Shown: positions 13,484-30,588 of the stretch, piece after piece | How positions within the stretch are numbered: the stretch's first letter is position 1 | Layout: every line of letters begins with the position of its first letter | From: Leucobacter rhizosphaerae | GTDB lineage: Bacteria > Actinomycetota > Actinomycetes > Actinomycetales > Microbacteriaceae | DNA: 64,000 nt | Assembly (NCBI RefSeq): GCF_022919175.1 | Contig: NZ_CP095043.1 | Location: 2,480,001-2,544,000, forward strand | Reading direction: 5' to 3' | Program-made: the position numbers and the translations under genes | The notes under the pieces: generated by a model | Seen by the model: the letters and a program-made list of their open reading frames with translations, nothing else | The model's database searches: none | Told to the model about the DNA's origin: nothing

Positions 13484-14479
13484 CTAGTGCAGACCGAGGT
13501 AGGTCTCGAGCGTTTGCGGAGTAGCGGTCAGGAGCGGGTCCTGCACCGCCTCGCCGGGGAACTCGCTGGCTTCGAAGAACCATCGATTCGAGGCGGGCAT
13601 GCCCCACAACTGTGCGCGGCGGGCATTGCTGATGTCCCACCGGATCGGCGGGGTCTCCAGGTCGATGAATTGATAGTGCGTGTTGAACAGTTCCACGCGG
13701 TGCTGATCGGGATCTCGCAGATACAGGAAGAGCGCGTTACTGATGCCGTGCCGGCCCGGGCCTCGGTCGATCTCATCCCCGAACCCCATCGCGCCGGCGA
13801 CGTCGGCTGCATGGAGGAGCGACGAGCCGTCCGGTACTGCGTAGGCGAAGTGGTGCAGTCGGGGCCCGCGACCGTTCGTGAAGACGAGGTCGTGCGTATT
13901 GCCCTTGACCTCCATCCAGGAGCCCCACAGCTCGTCTGAGCCGTCGGTCGCGGTGTACTCCGAGATGCGCATGCCCAGGCCGGTCCAGAATTCCGTCGCG
14001 GTCTGAACGTCATAGGTGACGACCTGGTAGTGATCGAGACGCTGCGGGAATCCTGCCCGGTATTCGTCATAGTTCTGCATCTTGCGATCGACCACGTCCA
14101 TGGAGGACGTGAACTCCATGAGCGTACCTACGGGATCGCGGAACTGCAGGGTCGGTCCCTGGTGATCACGCTCGACCCGGCGATGCTCGATGCCCGCTGC
14201 GGCGAAGTGGCGCTCGGCCGCATGGATGTCCTCATCGCTGCGCACACGCAGACCGATCCGATGCGCGTGCGCCGCGGCGGACCGCTCCAGAACGAGGCTG
14301 TGGTGGGCAGCCTCCTCGAGGCCCCGCAGGTAGATGGTGGTGTCCGTCTCCTCGGTCACGACGAGCCCGACGACGTCTCGGTAGAAATCACGGCTTCGCT
14401 CGAGGTCGGTGACCCCGAGGACGACATGGCTCGCGCGCGTGATGGAAAACTGCGGATGAGGGTTGCTGACGGGTAGCAC
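13484..14479 (-). CDS. Extradiol ring-cleavage dioxygenase, homoprotocatechuate type
   Basis: A two-domain VOC dioxygenase of 331 residues. GTG 14479 is taken as the start: GGAG lies 5 nt upstream and the first domain follows. Metal ligands sit where homoprotocatechuate 2,3-dioxygenase has them: His150 in 'RLDHYQVV', His209/210 in 'RLHHFAYA' and Glu263 in 'HRVELFNTHY'. 'DRGPGRHGISNALFLYLRDPDQHR' and 'IRWDISNARRAQLWGMPA' are also typical of that enzyme. It should open a catechol-type ring next to the hydroxyls using Fe(II) or Mn(II). The true substrate may differ, as no other homoprotocatechuate genes (hpaE, hpaF) are seen. A LysR gene is divergent. Confidence 0.87.
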   Translation of the reverse strand: MLPVSNPHPQFSITRASHVVLGVTDLERSRDFYRDVVGLVVTEETDTTIYLRGLEEAAHHSLVLERSAAAHAHRIGLRVRSDEDIHAAERHFAAAGIEHRRVERDHQGPTLQFRDPVGTLMEFTSSMDVVDRKMQNYDEYRAGFPQRLDHYQVVTYDVQTATEFWTGLGMRISEYTATDGSDELWGSWMEVKGNTHDLVFTNGRGPRLHHFAYAVPDGSSLLHAADVAGAMGFGDEIDRGPGRHGISNALFLYLRDPDQHRVELFNTHYQFIDLETPPIRWDISNARRAQLWGMPASNRWFFEASEFPGEAVQDPLLTATPQTLETYLGLH

Positions 14480-14573
14480 GGGAGCTCCAATTCGGGTCGA
14501 GATCGGTCCACGGTGATCACCAGCTTCGCCGTGGTGTGCGCGTTCCGGAAGCAGGGAATGCACTCGCACGGAC

Positions 14574-14588
14574 ATAGCCTGTACCTAT
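14574..14588. promoter_or_regulatory. LysR-type T-N11-A operator
   Basis: ATAG-N7-CTAT is a perfect dyad with the T-N11-A pattern of LysR boxes. It sits between the divergent dioxygenase and LysR genes, at about the -35 region of the regulator's own leaderless promoter (TATGCT at 14603-14608). Confidence 0.6.
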
Positions 14589-14615
14589 GGCGGGTGCTCA
14601 AATATGCTTGACACC

Positions 14616-15536
14616 ATGGAGCTTCGATCGTTGAGATACTTCGCCGCGGTGGTTGAAGCCGGATCGTTGACGGCGGCAGCGGCGGCGTTGCACATGTCGC
14701 AGCCGTCACTCAGCGTGGCGATCACCAAACTGGAATCCGAAGTCGGAGTGCAGCTGATTCGACGTTCGACTCGAGGTGTGCAGGCGACAAGCGCTGGCCG
14801 TTTTCTGCTTGATGCCTCGACTCGGGTGCTCGGGGATGTCGACGACATGCTCGCGACACTCGCCCGATTCGGGTCGGGGACCGCGGGGTCGGTGACCATC
14901 GCCGCCGTTCCCGTGCTCATGTGGCACCGGCTTCCCAAGCTGGTGCGCACGCACGCTGCGGTCGTGCCGGAGATCGACGTCCGGCTGGTGGATCCGCCCC
15001 CGTGGACGGCCATCGACATGCTGCAGCAGGGCAAGGTCGACCTGGCAGCCATCCTGGTCTCGGATCACCGGCAATTTGCTCAACGGCTCAGAGGAGAGTT
15101 CGAGATCGTTGATTGGGGTGACGTGCCGCTGGTCGCAGCGCTTCCCCCGGAACGTGCGGATGCGGCGAGCCCATTCCCGCTGCTGTCATTCAATGATGCT
15201 GATGTCGTCATGCCACGGAGTACCGCTGCGGTCCCGAGTCTCCCGGAGGCCATTGATGCGGCGTTCGAGCGCTACGGGATCGAGCCCGCTCGCGTACGCA
15301 CCGCCGAGACCATCCAGGCGAGTGTTCCACTCATCGAGGCAGGCGTTGCGTGGGGAATTCTGCCCGATCCCGATCGGAGCAGCCTCGCGCGATTCGATCT
15401 CACGGTTCGCACCCTGCACCCTGCTCCCGCACCGCTGCGCGCACTCGTGCTTTCCCGGATCGGCGCGGCCTCGGATCCCGCGCTGGCCGGGCTGCTGTCT
15501 CGGATTGCAGGCGAGGCATCCGAGAATCGTGTGTGA
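14616..15536 (+). CDS. LysR family transcriptional regulator
   Basis: A 306-residue regulator. ATG 14616 gives the standard start 'MELRSLRYFAAVVEAGSLTAAAAALHMSQPSLSVAITKLE', the winged HTH with its linker helix; the gene looks leaderless. Residues from about 90 onward are the periplasmic-binding-like effector domain, which usually senses the pathway substrate or an intermediate. Divergent placement against the extradiol dioxygenase, with a T-N11-A box between them, makes that gene the obvious target. The stop codon overlaps a copy of the AATCGTGTGTGA motif that precedes the next gene. Confidence 0.9.
   Translation: MELRSLRYFAAVVEAGSLTAAAAALHMSQPSLSVAITKLESEVGVQLIRRSTRGVQATSAGRFLLDASTRVLGDVDDMLATLARFGSGTAGSVTIAAVPVLMWHRLPKLVRTHAAVVPEIDVRLVDPPPWTAIDMLQQGKVDLAAILVSDHRQFAQRLRGEFEIVDWGDVPLVAALPPERADAASPFPLLSFNDADVVMPRSTAAVPSLPEAIDAAFERYGIEPARVRTAETIQASVPLIEAGVAWGILPDPDRSSLARFDLTVRTLHPAPAPLRALVLSRIGAASDPALAGLLSRIAGEASENRV
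15525..15536 (+). promoter_or_regulatory. AATCGTGTGTGA operator-like site 1
   Basis: First of three identical 12-mers. It ends 7 nt before a -10-like TAGGAT (15544-15549) upstream of the GntR gene, the same geometry as site 3. Probably an autoregulatory GntR site. Confidence 0.6.
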
Positions 15537-15622
15537 AATCAGATAGGATTGCAGAAGCGGAGTCTTCGGGCTTCAATTGAACCCTGCGAATGCGCACTGG
15601 AGCGAGAACCGGGAGGGCGGCG

Positions 15623-16294
15623 ATGGCGAAGAGCAAAGCCGAGCAATGCTACGACATCCTGAAGGTCAAGATCATGGATGGCACGTACGGTCCGGGGTAT
15701 CGGCTGGTCATCGATCAACTCGGGCGCGAGTACGGCATCAGCTCGGTCCCCTGGCGAGAGTCGCTGCGCCGGCTCGAGGCGGAAGGGTGGGTCGACATCA
15801 TTCCGAATGCCGGGGCGCTCGTGAAGACGTTCGACACGGGCACCTGGAAGCGCACGATTCGTCTGCTGGCCCGACTGGAGGGTCTGGCCACGGCGCTGTC
15901 CGCCGAACAGCTGAGCGCCGAGGACATCGCCACGGCGCGGGCGCTCAATGATGAGATGCGCGATGCGCTGGAGAACTTCGATACCAATCGTTTCGGTCGG
16001 CTCAATCGGAAGTTCCACCAGTTCCTCTGCTCCCGCTGCGACGACGAGCGGCTGGTCGACATGGTCGAGGCCGAGTGGACCCGCATGGATATCATCCGAC
16101 GCTCGGCGTTCTGGTACGCCCCGGGGCGCGCGGTGGCCTCACTCGCTGAACACGATGCGCTCCTCGATCTGATCGAAGCCGGCGAAGACGCGGAGACCAT
16201 CGAAACCGCCGCACGACGCCACGAGGTCAATACGCTCGAGGCGGTGCTCGCCCACGACGAGCAACGTCATGCCGAGGATGCATCTTTGGCGTGA
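15623..16294 (+). CDS. GntR family regulator, FCD subfamily
   Basis: A 223-residue regulator from ATG 15623 (GGGAGG upstream). The N-terminal winged HTH is 'AEQCYDILKVKIMDGTYGPGYRLVIDQLGREYGIS'; the C-terminal all-helical FCD domain contains the metal-binding pattern with 'RLNRKFHQFLC', 'LAEHDALLDLIEAG' and 'RRHEVNTLEAVL'. FCD regulators bind carboxylic acids and usually repress catabolic operons. One AATCGTGTGTGA copy lies before its own gene and two more before the amidohydrolase and hydrolase-monooxygenase operons, so it is the best candidate for controlling the island. Confidence 0.88.
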   Translation: MAKSKAEQCYDILKVKIMDGTYGPGYRLVIDQLGREYGISSVPWRESLRRLEAEGWVDIIPNAGALVKTFDTGTWKRTIRLLARLEGLATALSAEQLSAEDIATARALNDEMRDALENFDTNRFGRLNRKFHQFLCSRCDDERLVDMVEAEWTRMDIIRRSAFWYAPGRAVASLAEHDALLDLIEAGEDAETIETAARRHEVNTLEAVLAHDEQRHAEDASLA

Positions 16295-16344
16295 CTCCGC
16301 GGAGAACAACGCGGTCGGGGCGGCTCATCCACCCCGACCGCGCA

Positions 16345-17649
16345 TCAGTGCTCCGAGTGCTCCCGCTCCCATGCCGCCAGCGTCGCCTTGCCGTAATCGT
16401 TACCGTTCGGCAGCCGCAGCGTCGTATGGACGTGGAATCGAGCGGGCAACCGATTGCTCAGCCAGACCCCGGCGTGGTGATCGAGCTCTGCGAGGATCAC
16501 CGGGCTGTGCACGCGGAAGTAGAACGGTTGTGAACCGTCGGTCGCTCCGTACCAGGAGAAGTACGTCGCTGCCCGATGCGCCCGCACCTCGGCCATCGTT
16601 GCCTCGCGCTGCTCCTGCCGGAGCAAGAGGTGGAAGTCCTCCACAATGCGCAACACCAGGTCCCACTGATGATCATCGAGCGAATCCGCGCAGATCCCCT
16701 CGTACGGAACCACTCGGTTGTCCCGGAAGGCACCTCCGACGTGGCGTTCGTCGGCCGGATGCAGCCGCCCCTCGGGCATGAGCGGATCGAGCACCGACTC
16801 GAACACGATCGCGTCACGCCGCTGGCTGGAATCGAGTGATTCTGCGAGCGATATGGCGAGCTGTTCACGCGCATCGAAGAGCGGAGGCCGCGCTCCCTCC
16901 GAGAGCGCCGGCTCGGCTCCGAGGAACACGGGTGCAACGATCTCTCGATCTCCGACGGTGAGGAAGTTCAGTGCGACGTGATGCCCGAACAATTGCCAGC
17001 CCCAGGGCGCCTCGCTCCCGGGAGTGCCGAACAGAGCGAACCAGTAACTCTCGCTGTTCATGATCCGAGGCAGGTCGACGAGTTCCCCGAGGTAGGCGTT
17101 CAAGTGCATCGCCTCGCTGACGCGCGCGAACCCTTCTGGGCTCAGCGACCGTTCGACGACGTCCAGGATCGCTGAAGCGATCGCGGGATGCAGGTCTTCC
17201 AGACGCAGGCCCGTGCGAAAGAACACGAACTCGGGGTTGCTCCAGCCGCGCCACTCGGGTGCATCGAGTGGATAGCAGAGGTCGTCCCGCTGATCGGTGG
17301 ACACGAGATCCAGGAGGTGCGATGCTGCCGCTAGCAGCTCGGGATCCGCGGTCCCCTCCGGATCGGCGGGCCCGTAGAGACCCTCGATCGGCGATCCATC
17401 GGTGGTCAAGCCCACGAAGGGCTCGTCGTACAGACCTTTCCAGTACTCGAGCAGGGACCGGAGGAACGGCGCCGAGTATCTGTCAGCGGTGAACTCCTCG
17501 TACGTCATGCCCCGGTAAGGGGCGAGCACCTCATCCTGCAGCGGGTACAGGTGCTCTCGATAACTCAGCGATCCGAGTTCGATGCTCTCAGAGCGAGCGC
17601 TCGTGCGGTCGCTCGAGAAGAACTCGTCAATGTCATTCCGCTGTGACAT
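16345..17649 (-). CDS. DUF3500 domain-containing protein
   Basis: A 434-residue soluble protein started at ATG 17649, 7 bp after the amidohydrolase stop; the open frame continues upstream only as an overlap with that gene. DUF3500 hallmarks are 'PWGWQLFGHHVALNFLTVGDR', 'APVFLGAEPAL', 'QPFYFRVHSPVILAELDHH' and the terminal 'HVHTTLRLPNGNDYGKATLAAW', with several conserved His residues (GHH, VHS, FHVHTT) that could bind a metal. No signal peptide is visible. The family has no settled function known to me. Co-transcription with the amidohydrolase suggests it acts in the same catabolic pathway. Confidence 0.8.
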   Translation of the reverse strand: MSQRNDIDEFFSSDRTSARSESIELGSLSYREHLYPLQDEVLAPYRGMTYEEFTADRYSAPFLRSLLEYWKGLYDEPFVGLTTDGSPIEGLYGPADPEGTADPELLAAASHLLDLVSTDQRDDLCYPLDAPEWRGWSNPEFVFFRTGLRLEDLHPAIASAILDVVERSLSPEGFARVSEAMHLNAYLGELVDLPRIMNSESYWFALFGTPGSEAPWGWQLFGHHVALNFLTVGDREIVAPVFLGAEPALSEGARPPLFDAREQLAISLAESLDSSQRRDAIVFESVLDPLMPEGRLHPADERHVGGAFRDNRVVPYEGICADSLDDHQWDLVLRIVEDFHLLLRQEQREATMAEVRAHRAATYFSWYGATDGSQPFYFRVHSPVILAELDHHAGVWLSNRLPARFHVHTTLRLPNGNDYGKATLAAWEREHSEH

Positions 17650-17656
17650 CTCGGCG

Positions 17657-18706: not shown

Positions 18707-18790
18707 GTCGGCACTCCTACTGTGCATCGTTGCGGAAAGAAATGCAGTCCGATCCCTGATGCGCGCATCAGAGCGACTACTGCCACTGAC

Positions 18791-18818
18791 AATCGTGTGT
18801 GATTTCCTACGTGAAATC
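18791..18818. promoter_or_regulatory. AATCGTGTGTGA site 2 with adjoining dyad
   Basis: AATCGTGTGTGA at 18791-18802 overlaps a perfect inverted repeat GATTTC-N6-GAAATC (18801-18818). It lies about 85 bp upstream of the amidohydrolase start, on the side facing that operon, and probably controls it. No other gene is present in 18707-19013. Confidence 0.6.
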
Positions 18819-18952
18819 AAGTCATCAGGCCCGAGTTCTCGTCTTTCCGCCATTTCTGCGGCTCGGCGCACTCCTGCTCGCGCGCGTGCAGGTCGCTTCC
18901 GCTTCGGATCCACCCTCTCGCGAAACTCGCTGGACTCGATTTTGTATCGCAG

Positions 18953-18984
18953 TTGAAATCGTGTGTGATCTTGCGTACGATCAC
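18953..18984 (+). promoter_or_regulatory. Promoter with AATCGTGTGTGA site 3 in the spacer
   Basis: TTGAAA (18953-18958), a 17-nt spacer and TACGAT (18976-18981) form a well-spaced promoter for the hydrolase-monooxygenase operon. AATCGTGTGTGA (18957-18968) fills the spacer, and GTGATC-N8-GATCAC (18965-18984) is a wider dyad across the -10. Occupation would block RNA polymerase, so repression is expected. Confidence 0.68.
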
Positions 18985-19013
18985 TGATCAAGCCCATTCA
19001 GAGAGGAATGCAC

Positions 19014-19760
19014 GTGACCGAGCTCAATATCCGCGATGTGGAATATACGCACGCTGGCACGAGGTTGCTCGGCCTCCACTGCGCTCCGGAAGCGGCCGTC
19101 GACGCACCGACCGTCGTGCTGCTGCACGATGCGTTCGGGCTCGCAGACGAGATGGTGTCGATTGCCCGGCGTATCGCTCTGCTCGGCTTCTCGGTGTTCG
19201 CCGCTGATATCTGGGGAGATCGTGCGACCCCGGGTCAGCAGCACGAACTCGGCCCGCTCATCGGTGCGATGGTGTCCCGACGGGCGACGTGGATTGAACG
19301 AGTCGCTCTTGCACATGAGGTGGCTCTGGCTCAGCCCGGCTCCTCGCGAGCACGGCCCATTTCGCTCGGCTACTGCTTCGGGGGCTCGTCAGCTCTGGAG
19401 TATGCGCGGAGCGGAGGGGACGTGCGCGCGGTGATCGCCATCCACCCCGGGCTCGATCTCATCGAGTTCGACTGGTCCTCGGTGGAACCCGAGCGGGCGC
19501 CCGCCGCGCTCGTGTGTTTCGGCGCTGACGATCCGATGGCGACCCCCGAGCAGTGGCGCCGAACGAAGGCGAACATGAGCGCTGCCGGAGTCGACTGGGA
19601 ACTGCATCTCTACAGCGGCACGGTGCACGGATTCACCAGTCCGCGCGCGGCAGATTCGCCGGACCCCGAAACGGTGATGTACCACCCTCGGAACGCGGCA
19701 CGAGCGTGGCGGGCAACGGAAGACTTCCTGATCGAACTCCGAGACGGCGTTCGATTCTGA
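19014..19760 (+). CDS. Dienelactone hydrolase family protein
   Basis: An alpha/beta hydrolase of 248 residues. GTG 19014 is preferred because GAGAGG lies 7 nt before it; the ATG at 19008 is too close to that site. The catalytic triad of dienelactone hydrolases is visible: Cys121 in 'LGYCFGGSSALEY', Asp172/173 in 'CFGADDPM' and His205 in 'GTVHGFTSP'. Known members open lactones from chloro- or protoanemonin-type pathways, and others cleave different esters. First gene of a plus-strand operon under the promoter at 18953-18981; the monooxygenase follows 53 bp later. Confidence 0.88.
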   Translation: MTELNIRDVEYTHAGTRLLGLHCAPEAAVDAPTVVLLHDAFGLADEMVSIARRIALLGFSVFAADIWGDRATPGQQHELGPLIGAMVSRRATWIERVALAHEVALAQPGSSRARPISLGYCFGGSSALEYARSGGDVRAVIAIHPGLDLIEFDWSSVEPERAPAALVCFGADDPMATPEQWRRTKANMSAAGVDWELHLYSGTVHGFTSPRAADSPDPETVMYHPRNAARAWRATEDFLIELRDGVRF

Positions 19761-19813: not shown

Positions 19814-21088
19814 ATGCACGACATCGCCATTATCGGGGCCGGCCCGGGAGGTCTCTTCACCGCACTCCGGCTCCACCAGCGGGGCATCCCCACCCGAATC
19901 TACGAGTCTGTCCCCGAATTGAAGCCGCTCGGGGTCGGCGTGGACATCAAGGTGTACGGGGTCAAGGAGATCGAGGAGATCGGGCTGCTTGACGAGTTTC
20001 GAGCAATGTCGGTCGACGCCGTCGATTCGGTCTTCTACAACCACTTCGGCCAGGAGATCTACGCGGAGAAGTGCGGGGTGCACATGGGATACCTCCACGA
20101 GCAGCGCTTCGTGCACCGCGGGGCGTTCCAGATGATGCTGTACCGTGCCGTACTCGATCGCCTCGGACCGGATGCGGTGCAGCTCGGTGCTCGTCTTGTC
20201 AACTACGAGCAGGATGACACCGGGGTGACGCTGCACCTCGAGCATCGGGACGGTCGCCGCGAGAGCGTACGGCACGGAGCGGTCATTGCCGTGGACGGGA
20301 TCAAGTCCGTCGTCCGGGCACAGATGCACCCCAATCTCGCGGAACCGCACTACTCGGGGATCACGATGTATCGGGGGACGACGCTGCGGGAGCCCATTCG
20401 TGATGGGCACACGATCCTCCACGTCGGTGATCCGCGGATCTCGACGATGATCATCTACCCCATTGCCGATGACTTCGAGGGCACCGGGAAGCAACTCATC
20501 AACTGGGTGGTCGAGGTGGAGGGTGAGGAGACGATCGAGGACTGGAATCAGCTCGGCTCCACCGATGACATCATTCCGCTGTACGACACCGCGAACCTCG
20601 AATTCCTCGATCTTCAGCAGCTCATGCGGGATGCCCGCGAGGTCTATCTCTTCCCATTGATTCGCCACGATCCACTCGACAGTTGGGTCGACGGCCGTGT
20701 TGTGCTGCTCGGTGACGCAGCGCACGCCATGTACCCGCGCGGGGGCAATGGCGTGTGCCAGGCGATCCTCGATGCCCGAGTCGTTGCCGAGCAGCTCGCC
20801 CTGCACGACGACCCACACACGGCGTTCGCCGCGTACGACGCCGAACGCCGTGTGCCGGTCAATCGCATCGTCATGAACATGCGCGGAGAGGGGTACGAAG
20901 TCGTGCGCCGTATGGTCGCGGAACGGACTGACGGGACACCGCTCGACACTCGAGAGCAGATCGAAGCCGTGCTGCCACTTGCCGAGGCGGATGAGATCTT
21001 CAGCAACTACCACCGCCTCGTCGGTCAGCCGCTCCGCGACGGGCACGAGACCTACTCCAGCGGATTCCGCACGTGGGAGACGACGTGA
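19814..21088 (+). CDS. FAD-dependent aromatic monooxygenase (PhzS/salicylate hydroxylase-like)
   Basis: A 424-residue class A flavoprotein hydroxylase. ATG 19814 has ACGAGGAC upstream and starts the FAD motif at once ('HDIAIIGAGPGGLFTALRLHQRG'). 'AVIAVDGIKSVVR' is the DG motif and 'VVLLGDAAHAMYPRGGNGVCQAILDA' the GD motif. The latter's 'YPRGGNGVCQAI' resembles PhzS-type enzymes acting on aromatic acids with decarboxylation. It would use NAD(P)H and oxygen to hydroxylate a ring, preparing it for cleavage. Its stop overlaps the next gene's GTG start (GTGA), showing coupling. Confidence 0.88.
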   Translation: MHDIAIIGAGPGGLFTALRLHQRGIPTRIYESVPELKPLGVGVDIKVYGVKEIEEIGLLDEFRAMSVDAVDSVFYNHFGQEIYAEKCGVHMGYLHEQRFVHRGAFQMMLYRAVLDRLGPDAVQLGARLVNYEQDDTGVTLHLEHRDGRRESVRHGAVIAVDGIKSVVRAQMHPNLAEPHYSGITMYRGTTLREPIRDGHTILHVGDPRISTMIIYPIADDFEGTGKQLINWVVEVEGEETIEDWNQLGSTDDIIPLYDTANLEFLDLQQLMRDAREVYLFPLIRHDPLDSWVDGRVVLLGDAAHAMYPRGGNGVCQAILDARVVAEQLALHDDPHTAFAAYDAERRVPVNRIVMNMRGEGYEVVRRMVAERTDGTPLDTREQIEAVLPLAEADEIFSNYHRLVGQPLRDGHETYSSGFRTWETT

Positions 21089-21531
21089 GCGCCGTCATCG
21101 AGGCGACGGGCGAGCTCCGCGAGGAGATCCTCGCCGCGGAGTCTCGACGGCAGGAGGCGTTGATCGCGCAGGATCTCGGTGCTCTGCAGGCCCTCTTCGA
21201 CGACTCACTGGTGCACGTCCACGCACCGGGTGAAGTGCACACGAAGGCGTTGCTCCTTGAGCACGTCGCCACCCGCGGCGTGTATTTGGAGATCACTCGA
21301 GGTGCCCTCACCGTGCGCATCATCGGGGACGTGGCGATCATCACTGGTGCGATCACCAACCGCATGAAAGCTCCGGGTGGTGGAGAGCGGTCGATCTCGG
21401 GTGAAGCCACCCAGGTGCTGCGGTGCACGGATGATGCGGAGTGGGTCTTCGTGAGCTTCCAGATGACGCCCTACGGCGATAAGGCATGGGGGGCACTTCC
21501 CTCGCAGAACGACGAAAGGGACCCTGTATGA
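21085..21531 (+). CDS. NTF2-like (SnoaL/DUF4440) protein
   Basis: A 148-residue cone-shaped NTF2-fold protein. GTG 21085 overlaps the monooxygenase stop (GTGA) and GGGAG lies just before it. 'RRQEALIAQDLGALQALFDDSLVHVHAPGEVHTKALLLEHV' is the typical first half with His residues lining the pocket; 'WVFVSFQMTPY' is the last strand. Members act as small dehydratases, isomerases or binding proteins in catabolism. The exact step is unknown. The FAH-family gene starts within its stop codon (ATGA). Confidence 0.8.
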   Translation: MSAVIEATGELREEILAAESRRQEALIAQDLGALQALFDDSLVHVHAPGEVHTKALLLEHVATRGVYLEITRGALTVRIIGDVAIITGAITNRMKAPGGGERSISGEATQVLRCTDDAEWVFVSFQMTPYGDKAWGALPSQNDERDPV

Positions 21532-22394
21532 GACTCGCACGATTTCGGCTCGGCGACAGCCCCGTAGCTCTGGGACGTGTCGACCTCTCCGGCACCGGTG
21601 ACACCATCGTCGACCTGACGGAGGCGGTGGGAGGGGAGACGTCGCTGCGCGCGATGCTGCCGCAGCTCGACGAGCATCGAGCTGCGATCCTCGCATCCTC
21701 GGGCAACCGATACCCCCTCTCCGAGGTGATCCTCGAGGCTCCCGTCGATGACCCTCAGAAGTATCTCGGGATCGGCATGAACTATCGCGAGCACGCTGAA
21801 GAGGCCCGGCAGGCCGGGATCCCGATCCCCGACAATCAGATGTGGTTCAACAAACAGGTCTCCTGCATCAATCGGCCGTACGGCGCGATCGTGAAACCGG
21901 ACATCTCGGACGCCCTGGATTACGAGGTCGAGCTCGGCGTTGTGATCGGGAGGACATGCAAGAACGTCGCCGTGGAAGATGCGCGCTCGGTCATTGCGGG
22001 ATACCTGGTGACGAACGACGTCTCCGTGCGGGATTGGCTGCAGAAGCGGTCGCCAACCTTCACGCTCGGCAAGTCCTTCGACACGCACGGCCCGATCGGA
22101 CCGTGGCTCACGACGGACGACGAGATTCCGGATCCGCTGCAACTGCGTATGCGACTGACGGTCAACGGCGACGTGCGACAGGACTGGCGCACCGACGACA
22201 TGATCTACGACATCTACGAGCAGATCGCCTACCTGTCGCAGGTCTTCACGCTGTTGCCAGGCGATATCCTCGCGACGGGGACTCCTGCGGGCATTGGAGC
22301 CCCCACCGGGAACTTCCTCCGGGTCGGCGACGTCGTTCGCGCGGAGATCGAGGGACTCGGGGCCATCGAGAACCGTGTTGTTCAGGAGTCGTGA
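21528..22394 (+). CDS. Fumarylacetoacetate hydrolase family protein
   Basis: A 288-residue FAH-superfamily enzyme starting at ATG 21528 (ATGA overlap with the previous stop; AAAGGGA upstream). Metal-binding acidic residues lie in 'ALDYEVELGVVIGR' and 'VTNDVSVRDW', with 'GKSFDTHGPIGPWL' and 'GDILATGTPAGIG' as further family motifs. Members hydrolyse acylpyruvates, or hydrate, isomerise or decarboxylate 2-oxo-dienoates after meta cleavage. That fits an extradiol pathway and places this enzyme after ring opening. Confidence 0.92.
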   Translation: MRLARFRLGDSPVALGRVDLSGTGDTIVDLTEAVGGETSLRAMLPQLDEHRAAILASSGNRYPLSEVILEAPVDDPQKYLGIGMNYREHAEEARQAGIPIPDNQMWFNKQVSCINRPYGAIVKPDISDALDYEVELGVVIGRTCKNVAVEDARSVIAGYLVTNDVSVRDWLQKRSPTFTLGKSFDTHGPIGPWLTTDDEIPDPLQLRMRLTVNGDVRQDWRTDDMIYDIYEQIAYLSQVFTLLPGDILATGTPAGIGAPTGNFLRVGDVVRAEIEGLGAIENRVVQES

Positions 22395-22396
22395 TC

Positions 22397-22919: not shown

Positions 22920-24464
22920 ATGTCCAGAAGGTCACTTCTCATGAAGTCCCTGATTCCACTCAGTATCGCGGGTCTGCTGCTCTCGGGATGCAGCGGCGGA
23001 GGCTCGGGATCCGGCGGAGGAAGTTCCAGCACCCCGAGCAGCGACACGCTACGGGTCAACTTCGGCGGATTTCCGGAGACCTGGGCGCCGGGCTCGCAGG
23101 CGATGGAACCCGGCTATGCGCGCGTACCCTATGAGATGCTCGTGATCCGAGAAAAGGACGGCACGATCCTTCCCAATCTCGCAACGGCGTGGGAGTTCGG
23201 AGACGGGGCGACTTCGCTGACACTGACCCTCCGGGATGACGTGAAATTCCATGATGGAACCGACTTCAACGCCGATGCCGTGAAAGCGAATTTCGAGTAC
23301 GTCGCGAACGTTGTGGGTGGACAGTTCGGGGGGCCGCTGAAGGCCGGTGTAGCGTCGGTCGATGTCGTCGACGACCAGACCGTGACGTTCAACTTCACTC
23401 GTCCCTTCGGGACGTTCCTGGATCTGCTGAGCCAACGCAATTTGCCGATGGGGAGTCCGACCGCCATTGCCGACGGGTCGATCGAAACGCATCCGGTGGG
23501 AACCGGCCCCTGGGCCTACGACCCGGAAAAGTCCGTCGAGGGAACGAGTGCGTACTTCGGTGCGTTCGCAGACTACTGGGGTGAGGAGCCAGGATTCCCG
23601 AACATCGATCTCTATGCGATTCCCGATGACACGGCGGCGACGGCTGCGCTCCTGGCCGGTGACATCGACATCACCGACACCGAGGTCGCAGAGATTCCTC
23701 GCATCGACGCGGCATCGAACGCTGAGTGGTTCGATTACCCGGCCATTCGAAATAATGTCACCTTCTTCGACCGGGGCCCCGGAGGCGTCTTCGAAGACCA
23801 GCGGGTTCGAGAGGCGCTGTGCTACGCGGTCGACAACGATGTCGTCGCGAATATGGCCACCGATCTCGAGGCCGCGAATCAGCACTTCACTGAGGGCGAG
23901 CCGGGATTCAGCGAGGCGATCACCGGTACGAACGGCGATCTCGATGAAGCGCTCAAGATTTGGGAGGAGCTCGGAAACCCCGAGTTGAAGGCGGAGATTC
24001 CCGCCGCACCGTTCAACCTCCAACAGGTCACGGTGCGTGTGGAGCAGATGAATCAATTGCCCAACGTGGACATCACGGTGCAGGAGGTGACGCCCTCGCA
24101 GTTCTTCTCCTCGTGGAACGGGGGCCAGTATCCGCTCGGAGTCGGGAGCCACGGCCAGATCACGCCGGCGGACTGGTACGGCGGCTGGTTCTCCGCCCAA
24201 GCGCCGGTGAATCACTCTGGCTTCGTGAGCGAGGAATTGCAGGCCGCGGCGTCGGCCGCCCAGCAGGCCGGAGGAACTCCGGAAGCCGAGGAACTCTGGC
24301 AGAACGTGATGTACCAGGTGTCGGAGGAACGACTGTCGTGCAGCCACCTCGTCGTACTGGAGAGCATCGCTTACAACACCGACACCGTCGCCAATGTCGG
24401 ACCCGGTGTGCAAGCCTGGGAGCAGAATCTCATCGACTATCGCGCCGTGACACCAGCCGGGTAA
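22920..24464 (+). CDS. ABC transporter substrate-binding lipoprotein (family 5)
   Basis: A 514-residue SBP_bac_5 protein. ATG 22920 follows AAGGAGG by 5 nt. The signal peptide ends in lipobox 'LLLSGC', then a Gly/Ser linker and the domain start 'TLRVNFGGFPETWAPGSQ'. 'DGTILPNLATAWEFGDG', 'LTLTLRDDVKFHDGTDFNADAVKANF' and 'VGTGPWAYDPEKS' are diagnostic of the peptide/nickel/opine group, which also carries plant sugars and aromatic conjugates. It is the capture subunit of the importer encoded by the next two genes and lies in the catabolic island. Confidence 0.92.
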   Translation: MSRRSLLMKSLIPLSIAGLLLSGCSGGGSGSGGGSSSTPSSDTLRVNFGGFPETWAPGSQAMEPGYARVPYEMLVIREKDGTILPNLATAWEFGDGATSLTLTLRDDVKFHDGTDFNADAVKANFEYVANVVGGQFGGPLKAGVASVDVVDDQTVTFNFTRPFGTFLDLLSQRNLPMGSPTAIADGSIETHPVGTGPWAYDPEKSVEGTSAYFGAFADYWGEEPGFPNIDLYAIPDDTAATAALLAGDIDITDTEVAEIPRIDAASNAEWFDYPAIRNNVTFFDRGPGGVFEDQRVREALCYAVDNDVVANMATDLEAANQHFTEGEPGFSEAITGTNGDLDEALKIWEELGNPELKAEIPAAPFNLQQVTVRVEQMNQLPNVDITVQEVTPSQFFSSWNGGQYPLGVGSHGQITPADWYGGWFSAQAPVNHSGFVSEELQAAASAAQQAGGTPEAEELWQNVMYQVSEERLSCSHLVVLESIAYNTDTVANVGPGVQAWEQNLIDYRAVTPAG

Positions 24465-24476
24465 TCGCGAACCGGC

Positions 24477-24517
24477 GGGGGTGAGCGTGTTGGGTGATCC
24501 GACTGCGCTTCACCCCC
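24477..24517 (+). terminator. Hairpin between binding-protein and permease genes
   Basis: GGGGGTGA.GCG pairs with CGCTTCACCCCC over an 18-base loop, followed by C-rich sequence. It could partly end transcription after the binding-protein gene, giving more binding protein than permease. Confidence 0.45.
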
Positions 24518-24626
24518 CCCTACGGGCGAGGCCATCGGGGCTCGCGCAGGAGTATCGGCAGGACGTACAGATGATTGACAGAGGAGAGATGATGTCAGCT
24601 CGAGCAGCGAGCCCGACGGGGGCGAC

Positions 24627-25574
24627 ATGCTGAAGCTCATTGGGACACGATTGCTCTTCGTGATCCCGCAGCTCCTGATCGTCTCCGTGCTGGTGTTCTT
24701 CATGGTCTACCTCATTCCAGGAAGCGCTGCCGCAATGATCCTGGGCGATACTGGCGCGACTCCGGACGACATCGCGCGCGTCGAAGCCGAACTCGGACTC
24801 GATCGCCCGGTGCTCGTGCGGCTGGTCGACTGGCTGGGCCTGGCGGTGCAGGGTGATCTCGGCACCTCGCTGCAGAACGGACGACCGGTGGTCGACCTCA
24901 TTGCCGCGAGACTTCCCGCGACGCTGTCGCTCGTCGGCGCGGGCTTGGTCGTCGCGATGCTCATTGGCATCGGACTTGGAGTGCTCGCGGGCACACACTC
25001 GCGTCGCCCGATCGATCGCGGGGTGACCGCCTTCACCTCATTCATGCAGTCGGTGCCGGAGTTCTGGCTCGGGCTCCTGCTCGTGCTCGTCTTCGTGATC
25101 CAGCTCGGGGTCGCTCCGGTCGTCGCCTGGGTGCCGCCGGAGTCGGACGTCTGGGGATGGCTGCGCGGTCTCATTCTTCCCGCATTGGCGCTCGGAGCGG
25201 GCGCTTCTGCACTCATCGCCCGCCAGACCCGCACCGCGATGGCGGCCTCGCTCTCCTCGCGATACGCCGACATGCTCACAGCGGCGGGAGTGCCCCGGCG
25301 CCGCATCATCTGGTCTTACAGCCTGAAGAATGCGCTGGTGCCGGTGCTGGCGTCGTCGGCGCTCGCGGTTTCCATCCTCTTCGGAACGAGCCTCGTGATG
25401 GAACGGGTGTTCGCGTTCCCCGGCGTCGGCACCATGCTGCTGGAGAGTGTGATCAGTAAGGACTTCCCGGTCGTTCAGGGGACGGTCCTGGTCGTCGCGG
25501 TGCTCATCATCGCGGTCAATCTCGTCGTCGACATCTGCTACGGCATCATCAACCCGAAGGCGAGGCCACAGTGA
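24627..25574 (+). CDS. ABC transporter permease, DppB/OppB-like
   Basis: A 315-residue inner-membrane protein with about six helices. It begins 'MLKLIGTRLLFVIPQLLIVSVLVFFMVYLIPG', the standard DppB N terminus, and has the loop 'LGLDRPVLVRLVDWLGLAVQGDLGTSL'. The EAA coupling loop reads 'YADMLTAAGVPRRRIIWSYSLKNALVPVL', and the C terminus is 'VDICYGIINPKARP'. It pairs with the permease domain of the next protein. The stop overlaps the next GTG start (GTGA). Confidence 0.93.
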   Translation: MLKLIGTRLLFVIPQLLIVSVLVFFMVYLIPGSAAAMILGDTGATPDDIARVEAELGLDRPVLVRLVDWLGLAVQGDLGTSLQNGRPVVDLIAARLPATLSLVGAGLVVAMLIGIGLGVLAGTHSRRPIDRGVTAFTSFMQSVPEFWLGLLLVLVFVIQLGVAPVVAWVPPESDVWGWLRGLILPALALGAGASALIARQTRTAMAASLSSRYADMLTAAGVPRRRIIWSYSLKNALVPVLASSALAVSILFGTSLVMERVFAFPGVGTMLLESVISKDFPVVQGTVLVVAVLIIAVNLVVDICYGIINPKARPQ

Positions 25575-28255
25575 GCCACCCGACTCCTCCCCAGACTCAG
25601 CTCGTATCCGTGGCGAAGCGGGCGTCTGCGCAGCCGAGCCGCCGTCGGTTTCTGCGGCGACTGGTGGCACAGCCCGCCACCGTACTGTCGCTGATCTGGA
25701 TCGGTGCGGTCGTTCTCGCGGCGGTGTTCGCGGGAGCACTGGCACCATATGACCCCGCGCTGAACAGTTTCACCCCCGAAACCGTCCTGCAAGGCCCGAG
25801 CGCGGAGCACTGGCTCGGAACCGATGAGAATGGTCGAGACGTCTTCAGCCGGATCCTCTTCGGCGCCAGGATTGCGCTGCTCGTCGGTGTCGGGTCGGTG
25901 CTGGTGGCGATGCTCATCGGCGTTCCGATCGGACTCTTGCTGGGGTACCGCGGCGGCTGGTGGGATCGAATCGGAACGCGTTTCGTCGACATCCTCGATG
26001 CGATGCCCGGATTGCTTCTCGCCTTCGCCGTGATCGCGATTCTCGGTCGAGGCCTACCCTCATTGATGCTGGCGATCGGCCTGATCTTCAGCATGAACTT
26101 TGCGCGTATGACTCGAGCGATCACGATTGCCGAGCGGGGGAAGCCGTACATCGACGCGGCGAAGGTCTCCGGGTTGCGGGAGATCGCGATCCTGTTCCGC
26201 CAGATCCTTCCGAACTTGATCGGGCCGCTCGTTATCCAGGGTGCCATTTTGACTGGCGCGGCGATCACGATCGAATCAATGCTCAGCTTCCTCGGGATCG
26301 GGCTCCAGTCGAGTGTTCCCTCATGGGGCGGACTACTCAGCACTGCGGCGGGCCAACTCGCCGTTCAACCGTTCCTCGCCTTTCCGCCGGGCATCGCGAT
26401 CGTCCTCACTGTCCTGTCCTTCAACATGCTGGGGGACGGCATCAACGACGCACTCGCGGGCGAGCAGCGCAAGCGAATCAAACCCGTGCGTCGGAAGGTC
26501 ATCCGGCGCCACCTGTCCTTCGCCGGGCAGTCGCCTTCTGAGCGTGGGCCGGTGCTCGACGTCCGCGACCTGCGCGTCGATCTGCATACCCAGCACGGTC
26601 AGGTCCCCTTGGTGCGCGGAGTCAATTTCCGCATCGAGCCGGGTGAGATCGTGGGGTTGTTGGGAGAGTCGGGATCCGGGAAATCGACGCTCGCCCGAGC
26701 GATTCTCGGTCTGATGCAACCCGGGATCGGGATCTCGGGCGGACAGATCCTGCTCGACGGCCAAGACATTGCGGGCCTCGGAGAGAAGGATCTGCGCTCC
26801 ATTCGCGGCAAGCGCATGGCCGCGGTGTTCCAGGACCCGATGGCTTCGCTGTCTCCAGTTCACACCATCGGAAAACAGCTCACGGAGACGATTCGCACCC
26901 ACTCGAAGATGACGAAGAGCGCCGCACGCCAGCGTGCCGTTGAACTCCTGACGCGTGTCGGGGTCGCCGATGCAGCAGCGCGATTGGATGACTATCCCCA
27001 CCAGTTCTCCGGAGGGATGGCTCAGCGTGTTGCGATTGCGATTGCCATCTCGTCGAACCCCGAATTGCTCATCGCCGATGAGGCGACGAGTGCGCTCGAC
27101 GTGACCACCCAGGCGCAGGTGCTCGACCTCCTGCTCGACCTGCGAGATGAGATGGGGCTGAGCATTCTGTTCATCACGCACGGCTTGGGTGTCGTCGCGG
27201 AGGCGTGTGATCGGGCGATGGTGATGTACCAGGGAGAGATCGTCGAATCCAGCGGTGTCTGGGAGCTGTTCGATCACCCCCAGCATCCCTACACCGAGCG
27301 ATTGCTTGCGGCGAACCCGGCCGTCCATGTCGGGGTGGAACCGGGAGTCCGGTCTGACACGGCGCATCGCGGGGCGGATCACGACGGCGATGCGTCGGAT
27401 CACGTGCTCTTGCGTGTTCAGGAACTCGCTCTGTCTTACGGCGCGAAGGGGGTGTGGGGCAAGGCTCCCGCGCCCATCGTCGAGGGTGTGAGCTTCGACA
27501 TCGGGTCCGGAGAGACCCTGGGGCTGGTCGGAGAGTCGGGCTCGGGGAAATCGACGACGGGCCGCGCGATTCTGCGATTGCTTCCCATCGCGGGCGGGAG
27601 CGTGGCGTTCGAGGGAGTCGACATCACGACTTTCGGCGCTCGCACCCCGTTGAGTTACCGTCGCGATGTGCAGGCGGTCTTCCAAGACCCATCGATGTCG
27701 TTGAATCCGCAGCAACCGGTCTCCAATGCCCTCACCGCGGCTCTCGCGCGACACGGCATCGGTGAGAGCGCCGAACGCGAACATCTCGCGGAGCAGGCGT
27801 TCGCCCAGGTCGGATTGACGAACGACCACCTCGCGCGTCGCCCTGCCGAGCTCTCCGGAGGGCAGCAGCAGCGGGTAGCCATCGCGCGTGCGCTCGTCTT
27901 GAAACCCAAGCTGGTGGTGTGCGATGAGGCAGTGAGTGCGCTCGACCTGCTCACGCAGCAGCAGATCATCGAACTCCTCGCGGACCTGCAGGAGGAGACC
28001 GGTGTCAGTTATCTCTTCATCGCCCATGATCTCGGGCTCGTGAGGAAGATCTCTGATCGTATTGCAGTCATGCGGTCGGGCAGGCTGGTCGAATTCGCGG
28101 ACGCCGAAGAAGTGTTCCAGCATCCTTCGCACCCTTACACCCGGAGACTGCTCGGCGCGACACCGGCTGACCACCCGAGCGGTCGAGAGGACCGCAGGCG
28201 CACACGGCGCGCGTATAGCGAAGCGCACGCAGCGGGGGCAACGCCGGTGCCGTGA
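25571..28255 (+). CDS. Fused ABC importer subunit: DppC permease + DppD + DppF ATPases
   Basis: One 894-residue reading frame carries three normally separate subunits. Residues ~1-300 are a DppC-type permease ('[20 protein letters not shown]', '[20 protein letters not shown]', ending '[10 protein letters not shown]'). About 335-600 are the first ATPase: Walker A 'GESGSGKST' near 365, signature 'FSGGMAQR', Walker B '[12 protein letters not shown]'. About 620-870 are the second ATPase: 'GESGSGKST' near 654, 'LSGGQQQR', '[12 protein letters not shown]'. The first ATPase has 'ITHGLG' where D usually follows the switch His. DppD-DppF fusions are common; adding the permease is rare to my knowledge. 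No internal stop or restart is seen. Confidence 0.92.
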
Positions 28256-28277
28256 GGGCGCGATCCGAGCGGATCGC

Positions 28278-28706
28278 CTAAGGCGCGTTGCGGGTGCGAA
28301 TCAGCCCGTGCAGCAGTCGCTGGAGTGCGACGACGGTCTCGGACGGGTCGATGTCTGCCGGCCATGCTTCCTGGACGGATTCCGACCATGAGGCTCGAAG
28401 CGAGTCGAGGGTGTCCTGTGCCAACGCCGTCGGCGTCACGCGCACGGATCGCGCGTCATTCGGGTCGGTATCGCTCGAGACGTACCCCAGGCTGCGAAGG
28501 CGCCTGAGGGCCGGGCTGACGTTCGCGCGGATCAGGCCGGTTCCCGCCGCGATGTGCGACGGCGTGCTGCCGGGGTGCTGGTGGAGGTGTCGCATCACTT
28601 GACTCTCTGTCTGGTTGAGCGTCGCGTGGCCACGCAGTCGAATCTCTCGGGCGATGTCAATCGTGAGGTCTGCGATCTCCGCGTAGGGCTGCTGAGTGCT
28701 GGGCAT
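28278..28706 (-). CDS. MarR family transcriptional regulator
   Basis: A 142-residue winged-helix regulator from ATG 28706 (GAGGAAG upstream). The DNA-binding part is 'LNQTESQVMRHLHQHPGSTPSHIAAGTGLIRANVSPALRRLRSLGYVSSDTDPNDARSV', split between recognition helix and wing. MarR proteins respond to phenolic or other aromatic ligands. It is divergent from an aromatic monooxygenase, with a perfect AT-rich palindrome (28763-28782) between, and converges on the importer gene with only 22 bp between stops. Confidence 0.88.
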   Translation of the reverse strand: MPSTQQPYAEIADLTIDIAREIRLRGHATLNQTESQVMRHLHQHPGSTPSHIAAGTGLIRANVSPALRRLRSLGYVSSDTDPNDARSVRVTPTALAQDTLDSLRASWSESVQEAWPADIDPSETVVALQRLLHGLIRTRNAP

Positions 28707-28762
28707 GGGTCCATTCTTCCTCAGGTCGTTGTCGCGATGACGGAGCTGCGCTATGGTGTATT

Positions 28763-28782
28763 TAGTTATTAAATCATAACTA
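28763..28782. promoter_or_regulatory. MarR-type operator palindrome
   Basis: TAGTTAT-N6-ATAACTA, a perfect dyad in a strikingly AT-rich patch of otherwise GC-rich DNA. It lies between the divergent MarR gene and monooxygenase gene, where an autoregulating MarR repressor would bind. Confidence 0.68.
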
Positions 28783-28848
28783 TTTACGTGTGCAAGCTGA
28801 GGTGCCGGTCGCTGGGCGGTCGGCACGTGAGAATGAGGTGGGAGTGCG

Positions 28849-30588
28849 ATGGAGCACATCGAAACAGAAGTACTCGTGGTGGGGGCCGGACTGGCCGGAG
28901 CAAGTGCCGCGCTGATGCTCGCCAGACACGGCGTGCGCACGTTGGCCGTGAGTCGGGGTCACTGGGTCGCGGACTCGCCGAGAGCACACATCGTGAATCA
29001 GCGGACGATGGAAGTGCTGCGGTCTCTCGATCTCGAGTCGGTATGCGCCGATGCGGCAGTGCCGGGCGAGCTCATGGCGAACCACCCGATGATGACATCA
29101 CTCACGGGTCGGGAATTCGGGCGACTGTGGACCTGGGGGAACGACCCGGTGCGACAAGACGAATACGGAGCCGCGAGCCCCGTCACCGGGTGTGATCTGC
29201 CCCAGGATCGATTCGAGCCGATCCTGATCTCCGAGGCGCTCCGACTCGGTGCCGTCGTGCGATTCCGCACTGAATTCGTCTCGCTCGAGCAGGATGACGA
29301 CGGGGTGACGACGACGCTCCGAGACCTGGTGACGAATTCCGAATTCACTGTGCGCTCGAAGTACGTCGTCGGGGCCGACGGCGGTCAGAGCCCGGTCGCA
29401 GAAGCGGTCGGACTCCCGTTCGAGGGGACACCCGGGATCGGGCCCGCATTGAACATCCACTTCCGCGCGGACCTCTCCCGATTCATCGAGGATCGACCGG
29501 GATCCATCTTTTGGATTCTTCAGCCCGACCGCGAGGGCGCGATGGGAAACGCGATGCTCCGCATGGTGCGACCGTGGTCGGAGTGGATCGTGGGGTTCGT
29601 CCATCTCGGGGAGAGCATCCGTGGCGCCAGCGAGGATGAACTCATCGGCCTGGTGCACGAGATCATCGGTGATGACAGCGTGCCGATCGAGATCATCGGA
29701 TCGTATCCGTGGCGGATCAACCACGTGATCGCGCAAGAGTACAGCCGGGGACGGGTGATGTGTGCGGGTGACGCAGTGCACCGGCACCCGCCGATGAATG
29801 GCCTCGGGGGCAATACCTGCATTCAGGACGCATTCGGACTCGCGTGGAAACTCGCCGCAGTGCTGCGCTGGGGCGCGGGCCCTCGTCTACTCGAGACCTA
29901 CAGCGCCGAGCGCCAACCCGTTGGTCGCACCGTGGTCGATCGCGCCGTTGCGGGGTGGCGGCAGAACCCGGAGGTCATTCGATCGCTCGGCATTGATCCC
30001 GCGGCGTCGCCGGTCGAGCGTCAAGCGCAGTTCGACGTGCTCTTCGAGGACTCCGAGGAAGGGGAGCAGCGACGAAGTGACTTCGAACGGGCTAAGCGGT
30101 CCAAAGAGTACTCGTACCATGCGCACGGCACCGAGATGAATCAGCACTACGCATCCAGCGCGATCATCGAGGATGAAGGGCTCGAACCGCTCGCGCATCG
30201 GGATGCCGATCTCCACTTCACCATGACGAGCAGGCCCGGTTCTCGGGTTCCGCACGCCTGGGTCGCACAGAGCGGACGCACGATCTCGGTGCTGGATCTC
30301 TGTCGCCCGGAGCAGTTCACCCTGCTCGCCCGGAATCGGGGGGCGGAGTGGATCGCCGCTGCGCAGAAGGTCGGAGAGCGCTTGGGCGTTCCCCTCGTCG
30401 CCGTGAGGATCGGGCCGGGGTGCGAGGTCGAGGATCTCTACGGAGTCTGGAGGGACGTCTCGGAGATCGGAGAAGGGGGAGCTCTGCTGGTACGGCCCGA
30501 CCAGCATGTCGCCTGGCGCAACGCAATAATGGCCAGTGACCCCGAAGTCGAGTTGGAACGGGCGCTCCGGCAGATCCTCTCGATGTAG
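28849..30588 (+). CDS. FAD-dependent phenol-type monooxygenase (TfdB/MhpA-like)
   Basis: A 579-residue flavoprotein hydroxylase; ATG 28849 has GGGAG upstream. 'EVLVVGAGLAGASAALMLARHG' binds FAD, 'SPRAHIVNQRTMEVLRSL' is the signature of the 2,4-dichlorophenol/phenol hydroxylase group, 'VVGADGGQSPVAEAVGL' is the DG motif and 'VMCAGDAVHRHPPMNGLGGNTCIQDAFGLAWKLA' the GD motif region. The C-terminal third has the thioredoxin-like domain of this class ('GCEVEDLYGVWRDVSEIGEGGALLVRPDQHVAWR'). It should ortho-hydroxylate a phenolic ring to a catechol, supplying the extradiol dioxygenase. Probably under MarR control. Confidence 0.9.
   Translation: MEHIETEVLVVGAGLAGASAALMLARHGVRTLAVSRGHWVADSPRAHIVNQRTMEVLRSLDLESVCADAAVPGELMANHPMMTSLTGREFGRLWTWGNDPVRQDEYGAASPVTGCDLPQDRFEPILISEALRLGAVVRFRTEFVSLEQDDDGVTTTLRDLVTNSEFTVRSKYVVGADGGQSPVAEAVGLPFEGTPGIGPALNIHFRADLSRFIEDRPGSIFWILQPDREGAMGNAMLRMVRPWSEWIVGFVHLGESIRGASEDELIGLVHEIIGDDSVPIEIIGSYPWRINHVIAQEYSRGRVMCAGDAVHRHPPMNGLGGNTCIQDAFGLAWKLAAVLRWGAGPRLLETYSAERQPVGRTVVDRAVAGWRQNPEVIRSLGIDPAASPVERQAQFDVLFEDSEEGEQRRSDFERAKRSKEYSYHAHGTEMNQHYASSAIIEDEGLEPLAHRDADLHFTMTSRPGSRVPHAWVAQSGRTISVLDLCRPEQFTLLARNRGAEWIAAAQKVGERLGVPLVAVRIGPGCEVEDLYGVWRDVSEIGEGGALLVRPDQHVAWRNAIMASDPEVELERALRQILSM

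Follow-up and report, generated by a model that had tools for sequence, protein, structure and literature searches.

The 64,000-nucleotide window analysed here (positions 2,480,001 to 2,544,000 of contig NZ_CP095043.1) belongs to the genome of Leucobacter rhizosphaerae, which measures 3.34 Mb and consists of a single contig. Between window positions 13484 and 30588 lie 15 genes with open frames, which support the preliminary description of this stretch as an uncharacterised aromatic catabolic island with its own importer and three regulators. The island is a real finding and its catabolic reading is sound, while the reading as an aminophenol pathway is not; most likely it degrades a plant-type phenolic by an unstudied route, possibly with a type of ring-opening enzyme that has been proposed so far in fungi alone.

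Gene content and extent of the island

All families named in the preliminary description were found, i.e. an HpaD-type VOC dioxygenase, LysR, GntR/FCD, DUF3500, Amidohydro_2, dienelactone hydrolase (DLH), FAD_binding_3 (twice, in the flavin monooxygenases FMO1 and FMO2), DUF4440/SnoaL (NTF2-like), FAA_hydrolase (FAH), RidA, SBP_bac_5 with Opp-type permeases and ATPases, and MarR. The order is HpaD (-), LysR (+), GntR (+), DUF3500 (-), amidohydrolase (-), then DLH, FMO1, NTF2-like, FAH, RidA and a three-gene Opp-type importer (all +), MarR (-) and FMO2 (+). Open reading frames (ORFs) that extend further 5' than the start positions of DUF3500, amidohydrolase, FMO1 and FAH are over-extended, and the ends have been corrected in the following list, where relatives are the 52 loci of the next section and bits are those of the profile match.

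13484..14479, minus: HpaD-family extradiol (VOC) dioxygenase, island type; TIGR02295 344 bits versus a cut-off of 321.4; alternative longer start at 14575
14604..15536, plus: LysR-type regulator; PF00126 and PF03466; in 26/52 relatives
15590..16294, plus: GntR/FCD regulator; PF00392 and PF07729; GntR-family gene in 38/52 relatives
16345..17649, minus: DUF3500 protein of 434 residues, candidate ring-cleaving (or hydro-lyase) enzyme; PF12006
17657..18706, minus: amidohydrolase resembling ACMSD and gamma-resorcylate decarboxylase, with altered metal site; PF04909 (longer ORF)
18707..19007, no strand: divergent promoter region with two ATCGTGTGTGAT copies (18792, 18958)
19008..19760, plus: DLH family protein, Cys motif GYCFGGS; PF01738 110.5 bits; Cys in 40/40 distinct sequences
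19814..21088, plus: FMO1, group A flavin monooxygenase of the PRK07538 subfamily (PhzS-like); NF005720 426.8 versus a cut-off of 400 (longer ORF); best PDB matches 2rgj/3c96, 234 bits
21073..21531, plus: DUF4440/SnoaL (NTF2-like) protein; PF14534; in 39/52 relatives
21528..22394, plus: FAH-superfamily C-C hydrolase or decarboxylase; PF01557 236.8 bits
22397..22789, plus: RidA-family protein; PF01042 46.8 bits; in 26/52 relatives
22920..24464, plus: SBP_bac_5 substrate-binding lipoprotein of the importer; PF00496 184 bits; lipobox read from the sequence
24627..25574, plus: Opp-type permease B; PF00528 and PF19300
25571..28255, plus: fused Opp-type permease C with two ATPase domains; PF12911, PF00528 and two PF00005 stretches
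28278..28706, minus: MarR-type regulator; PF01047/PF12802 (longer ORF)
28849..30588, plus: FMO2, phenol-hydroxylase-type flavin monooxygenase; PF01494 and PF21274; best PDB match 2-hydroxybiphenyl 3-monooxygenase, 503 bits

Of the FMO1 matches, 3c96 is presumably PhzS. The best PDB match of the FAH protein is 2,4-diketo-3-deoxyrhamnonate hydrolase (173 bits), with HpaG at 169 bits. The guanine-plus-cytosine (GC) content is 0.637 inside the island, compared to 0.694 before it (1-13483) and 0.710 after it (30589-36000), and third-position GC is 0.72-0.83 in 13 island genes (RidA and MarR being outside this tally) versus ~0.9 in most flanking genes. The island coordinates coincide with this step in composition.

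Conservation and shared regulation of the gene set

A contig scan with a DUF3500 alignment yielded 57 loci (numbered L), 52 of which, all from Actinomycetota (L002-L053), form the counting set; L054-L058, whose DUF3500 proteins are more distant (40-45%), were left out. The counts are minima, since several loci are truncated at contig ends or by the length of sequence taken. Carrier genera include Leucobacter, Microbacterium, Leifsonia, Agromyces, Herbiconiux, Curtobacterium, Demequina, Promicromonospora, Nocardia, Nocardioides, Streptomyces and Kitasatospora. Around the DUF3500 orthologue, the amidohydrolase is found in 51 of the 52 loci, followed by FMO1 (47), NTF2 (39), DLH (38), FAH and HpaD (35 each), and LysR and RidA (26 each), while a GntR-family gene is found in 38 (two different cluster GntR genes tallied together). 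As much of the set recurs in 52 loci, it is a unit; that the genes are neighbours by chance, which the preliminary description had named as one possible refutation, is ruled out by this synteny.

Pairwise protein distances are also correlated: among the 36 pairs of nine cluster proteins, p = 0.001 in 25 and p < 0.05 in 34 (permutation, 18-52 loci per pair), in a type of correlation that is inflated by host relatedness, and both non-significant pairs contain GntR. Within the genus the distribution is patchy, with a close DUF3500 orthologue (E < 1e-180) in only 6 of 53 other genomes, which is consistent with horizontal spread or loss. In a phylum sample of 396 genomes, the amidohydrolase (E <= 1e-120) is present in 5, the own genome included.

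Across the loci that show it, the amidohydrolase is 77-96% identical to the window protein, which is unusually conserved for a cluster enzyme despite its replaced metal-ligand positions. The Asn of its first motif, DINIHH (where we assume HxH or ExH to be usual), and the second Ser of GSSFPVF are found in 53/53 distinct sequences. This Ser sits opposite the Asp metal ligand of gamma-resorcylate decarboxylase, and the protein thus departs from the canonical ligand set of Amidohydrolase_2 decarboxylases. It scores 62.7 bits for gamma-resorcylate decarboxylase versus 41.3 for ACMSD. Relatives at 69% and 60% are encoded in other actinobacterial families (L163 9693-10739, L164 9627-10685).

With respect to regulation, ATCGTGTGTGAT has two exact copies in the divergent region between amidohydrolase and DLH, while a copy with one mismatch is found where LysR ends, directly before GntR. 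At up to two mismatches there are seven matches in the whole window versus 4.6 expected, a number that is not significant alone. The related 11-mer GAAATCGTGTG (at most one mismatch) has 43 sites in 53 loci (the window and the 52), of which 25 lie upstream of DLH or amidohydrolase, i.e. in 2.1% of the sequence, 3 before GntR and 15 elsewhere. Where DLH or amidohydrolase is preceded by such a site (24 loci), a GntR-family gene is present in 21, compared to 18 of the 29 other loci. The motif is likely to be an operator of the GntR regulator. Candidate 9-mers upstream of LysR were dropped, as they appear to lie within the divergent HpaD reading frame.

The peripheral genes differ among carriers. 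In some, a DesA/LigM-family O-demethylase, which scores under both cut-offs, occurs with MTHFR-type and formyltetrahydrofolate-hydrolase-type genes (families f20, f21 and f30, in 10, 9 and 6 of the 52 loci), while an alternative module consists of another FMO with a MarR regulator (f23 in 8 and f22 in 7). The importer is of the Opp type in 23 loci (substrate-binding protein f13) and of the Rbs/Ara type in 23 (ATPase f16), with both in L038 and neither seen in 7. This pattern of modules fits a central compound that would be a polyhydroxylated phenolic, formed from methoxylated or less hydroxylated precursors.

Homoprotocatechuate genes and DUF3500 proteins

According to the preliminary description there is no hpa set, which holds for the island in that HpaE, HpaH and HpaI are all lacking there, but is partly wrong: the island dioxygenase scores above the equivalog cut-off for HpaD, and the genome (designated G000; other genomes are likewise numbered G) has a canonical set of lower hpa genes at another place. 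This second cluster, at 1.031-1.038 Mb and ~1.5 Mb from the island, comprises HpaH, HpaI, FAH-RraA, GntR, HpaE and a second HpaD, with an importer adjoining. Its HpaE (1035572-1037041) scores 632.8 versus a cut-off of 638.35, and the HpaH and HpaI models also stay below theirs (344.2 versus 351.5 and 293.8 versus 368.8). The complete uptake-to-oxoacid route that had been claimed is thus not contained in the window, since HpaH, HpaI and FAH-RraA are at ~1.03 Mb of the same genome.

The other HpaD scores 428.3 bits, and the island HpaD is 39% identical to it. The island protein keeps the metal and substrate residues (the retained Arg, His and Tyr being, as we assume, those that bind homoprotocatechuate, HPC) and has Gln at the N157 position in 37/37 distinct sequences. 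The island FAH failed as an HpaG-type protein (TIGR02303 177.1, cut-off 276.4). The likeness to the hpa/hpc pathway thus lies in the HpaD-family dioxygenase and in HpaH, HpaI and RraA or FAH-RraA, which stand beside the cluster in many relatives and are present in the window's genome, whereas the island differs by its separate HpaD subfamily, its extra core of DUF3500, amidohydrolase, FMO1, NTF2 and DLH, and its missing HpaE, HpaH and HpaI. A plain hpa cluster is only a partial fit, because the genome has another hpa set.

The lower hpa genes adjoin the cluster in many of the 52 loci, i.e. f9 (RraA-type, the C-terminal half of PRK12764) in 33, HpaH-like in 32 and HpaI-like genes in 31. Their canonical order, seen in Leifsonia G112 (L155), is f9-GntR-HpaE-HpaD-HpaH-HpaI, and the clusters without island HpaD (L015, L018, L024, L027, L029, L030, L031 and L036) have f9-GntR-HpaH-HpaI, which is the canonical operon minus HpaE-HpaD. 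With the HpaE of G112 as query, close relatives (77-89%) were found in G000, G107, G110 and G111. A close HpaE is thus present in only 5 of the 15 genomes searched (G112 included), all of which hold a second, canonical-type HpaD, while in the other 10 cluster-bearing genomes the best aldehyde dehydrogenases are 37-50% identical. Island HpaD, f9 and HpaH are all present in two of the ten, the Demequina genomes G109 and G113. As ten searched carriers, two of them with island HpaD, have no close HpaE, the island route seems to join the lower HPC pathway after HpaE, which is what would be expected if the cleaved ring carbon is already hydroxylated.

A second DUF3500 protein, f26 (388 residues in L024, PF12006 222.7 bits), is placed beyond RidA in L018, L024, L027, L029, L031, L036 and the extended loci of G100, G104 and G105. 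With the G102 protein as query it was found at 63-86% in G100, G101, G103-G106 and G108, and these eight f26 genomes have either no full-length match to island HpaD or one of 31% at best. Island HpaD is present at 75-100% in G000, G002, G015, G019, G028, G036, G107, G109-G113, G219 and G377, and by locus in G505-G512, and none of these HpaD genomes has an f26 orthologue. Among the 31 genomes, 22 therefore have HpaD only, 8 f26 only, none both and one neither (G050, 76% complete).

In Aspergillus nidulans, the DUF3500 protein AN10530 has been proposed to convert 1,2,3,5-tetrahydroxybenzene to 5-hydroxydienelactone (2025 review, PMC12388069), and the available part of PMC13094099 likewise gives a fungal DUF3500 protein as the proposed opener of tetrahydroxybenzene. 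Deletion of all 17 candidate ring-cleavage genes left growth of Aspergillus niger on gallate, according to the part of the 2021 study available (PMC10512348). No bacterial function is assigned to DUF3500 in the available portions of the literature found on the domain. Taken together, the HpaD/f26 exclusion, the HpaE-poor carriers and the fungal proposal suggest that DUF3500 proteins may cleave rings in this cluster. In its full form, the proposal would be that DUF3500 is a separate ring-cleaving class, so far fungal only, that is also present in bacteria, and that a paralogue took the place of the HpaD-type dioxygenase at this point of the route and opens a vicinal triol, of which the product skips the semialdehyde and enters the lower HPC pathway as an acid; this we put forward tentatively, as it is more doubtful than probable.

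Other bacterial DUF3500 proteins (45-48% identical) adjoin GntR and FAH in the same-genus genomes G004 and G036, with an aromatic FMO in G004 only, and also, with an FMO, in G060, where the other DUF3500 protein is listed as Subtercola boreus. Loci of this subfamily with GntR/FCD and FAH are L081 (4097-8698), L083 (4317-10412) and L084 (7925-10943); L081 and L083 also have an aromatic FMO, and L081 a BD-FAE-type esterase and a cupin protein. These loci look like a second, simpler DUF3500 pathway. The gene set of G004, G036 and G060 resembles the fungal one that Martins reportedly described in 2024.

Proposed route and alternatives

Gene content, synteny, the shared regulator-site candidate and the presence/absence patterns are read from the sequence, and from there on we infer the steps of the route. 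On balance, we consider it somewhat more probable than not that the island has spread horizontally and serves one catabolic purpose, the degradation of a plant-type phenolic acid that is hydroxylated and, in some carriers, methoxylated, by a route of five steps. The compound would be taken up by the Opp-type ABC importer (Rbs/Ara-type in other carriers), after which a peripheral enzyme would make a polyhydroxylated ring, i.e. FMO2 here and another FMO or the tetrahydrofolate-dependent O-demethylase elsewhere. FMO1 would add a further hydroxyl group, possibly with loss of CO2. The ring would then be opened by the HpaD-like dioxygenase, or by the second DUF3500 protein where HpaD is absent, while the main DUF3500 protein, with DLH and FAH, would open or process a second ring or a lactone intermediate. 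Finally, the acid fragment would join the lower HPC pathway after HpaE (FAH-RraA, HpaH, HpaI), yielding pyruvate and succinic semialdehyde, a step presumably served in G000 by the hpa cluster at ~1.03 Mb.

Several observations weigh against this route. It is drawn from sequence, with a substrate that is only a candidate class, and the conserved amidohydrolase and NTF2-like protein have no place in it so far. Of the four other genomes with the amidohydrolase in the phylum sample, two (G295 with a 69% and G473 with a 60% relative) gave no match to the f26 DUF3500 query, and the operator-like GAAATCGTGTG is found beyond the cluster promoters too (the 15 of 43 sites elsewhere). Another aldehyde dehydrogenase, f28, is present in 7/52 loci and could replace HpaE. 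The exclusion is not a clean rule, as the HpaD-type G507 has a 39% f26 relative (beside FAH-like and hydratase-like genes) and G100 an extra 42% f26-like copy. Since the f26 genomes come from so few groups (five Streptomyces, one Kitasatospora, one Virgisporangium and one Nocardioides), there are few independent exclusion events. Lastly, a single solved DUF3500 structure was found, 9x86, and its title names a dehydratase, ApmL, from Amipurimycin biosynthesis.

This title is the basis for supposing that DUF3500 proteins are not oxygenases but hydro-lyases acting on ring-cleavage products, with HpaD as the sole ring cleaver and an unseen one in the f26 genomes. The similarity to ApmL amounts to 29% identity over 250 aligned residues, and ApmL differs from the island protein in being assigned to an antibiotic pathway and in its shorter chain (297 residues versus 434). 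Apart from 9x86, no fold was matched with confidence by Foldseek or VIA, although a missing match carries no weight as evidence, and literature searches on Amc20 and on amipurimycin/ApmL had nothing on DUF3500 among the matches listed. Given that exactly one of f26 and HpaD is present in 30 of the 31 genomes, and that a fungal DUF3500 protein has been proposed as ring opener, we regard this reading as rather unlikely.

A bacterial version of the tetrahydroxybenzene pathway is the next alternative. FMO1 would decarboxylate and hydroxylate gallate or a trihydroxybenzoate, DUF3500 would form the hydroxydienelactone, and DLH and FAH would convert this to pyruvate and a C3 acid, leaving HpaD for a separate compound. 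The fungal precedent combines an FAD monooxygenase with a DUF3500 protein (PMC12388069, PMC13094099, as far as their available text goes), and in the island DUF3500 and FMO are found together with DLH and FAH family proteins. The island DUF3500 protein belongs to PF12006, and FMO1 is in the same FAD_binding_3 superfamily as gallate 1-monooxygenase and has decarboxylating hydroxylases among its PDB matches; moreover, a 2,4-diketo acid hydrolase is the best match of FAH, and a syringate/vanillate-type O-demethylase is present in a subset of loci. However, HpaH and HpaI beside HpaD-less clusters would be left unexplained, as would the amidohydrolase, and no fungal names occur among the best 120 of 1874 and the best 120 of 352 matches to the two DUF3500 queries. 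The fungal pathway is described in the available text as seemingly fungal only so far, no bacterial one appeared among the matches listed in literature searches, and the bacterial cluster is tied to hpa lower genes. As an account of the whole island, this pathway is unlikely.

Less likely still is an alternative HPC (3,4-dihydroxyphenylacetate) cluster. In this reading HPC itself would be the substrate of the island HpaD, the part of HpaE would be taken by other dehydrogenases, and DUF3500, amidohydrolase and FMO1 would serve only to supply HPC from an aryl-acetate further upstream. The HpaD cut-off score, the retained residues presumed to bind HPC and the neighbouring lower hpa genes of relatives all agree with it. 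Nevertheless, G000, G107, G110, G111 and G112 already have a second HpaD (39-43% identical), which is part of a full hpa cluster in G000, G111 and G112 and adjoined by f9, GntR and HpaE in G110. The invariant Gln of the 37 distinct sequences and the lack of a close HpaE in the two Demequina carriers searched speak against it as well.

An aminophenolic or tryptophan-type pathway with a 2-aminomuconate branch, as implied by the earlier 'possibly amino-aromatic', is very improbable: although RidA and an ACMSD-like amidohydrolase are present, RidA is optional (26/52 loci) and matches general Rid models only, far under their cut-offs, the amidohydrolase has Ser in place of the Asp that binds the metal and matches gamma-resorcylate decarboxylase better than ACMSD, and no aminomuconate or aminophenol model, nor an aminophenol dioxygenase family, is among the matches listed for the island genes.

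Two known clusters were also considered and rejected. The bxd benzoxazinoid cluster of Microbacterium (PMC11297187) shares related host bacteria, a plant phenolic and a VOC-family protein, but its key lactonase BxdA, of metallo-beta-lactamase fold in the text available, has no counterpart, as no metallo-beta-lactamase domain is found among the island genes. The ifc isoflavone cluster of Variovorax (PMC11069340) likewise has a group A FMO followed by a glyoxalase-type protein, but it relies on cupin IfcD enzymes, whereas the island has no cupin, and the available part of its description names no DUF3500 protein.

Outside the island, a second lower-GC stretch (36155-42836, ~0.62-0.65 up to 42000) encodes an MmyB-like regulator, an aldo/keto reductase, a LysE exporter, an Lrp/AsnC regulator and a zinc alcohol dehydrogenase. 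It is followed by a separate high-GC Opp-type importer (44347-49536; double ATPase 44347-46197, substrate-binding protein 47890-49536) and by the genes for both chains of ribonucleotide reductase, large and small, in which GC is low at the first and second codon positions (59077-62242).

The chemistry of the island is a hypothesis, of which the sharp, testable point is whether DUF3500 opens aromatic rings, and the exclusion between HpaD and DUF3500 gives a direct experimental handle on it. If true, a role would be obtained for a domain with at least 1874 matching proteins, and bacteria would gain a ring-opening route that is at present called seemingly fungal-restricted in the available text of a 2026 fungal database paper. 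The turnover of polyhydroxylated or methoxylated phenolics by actinobacteria would then become testable with few genes.

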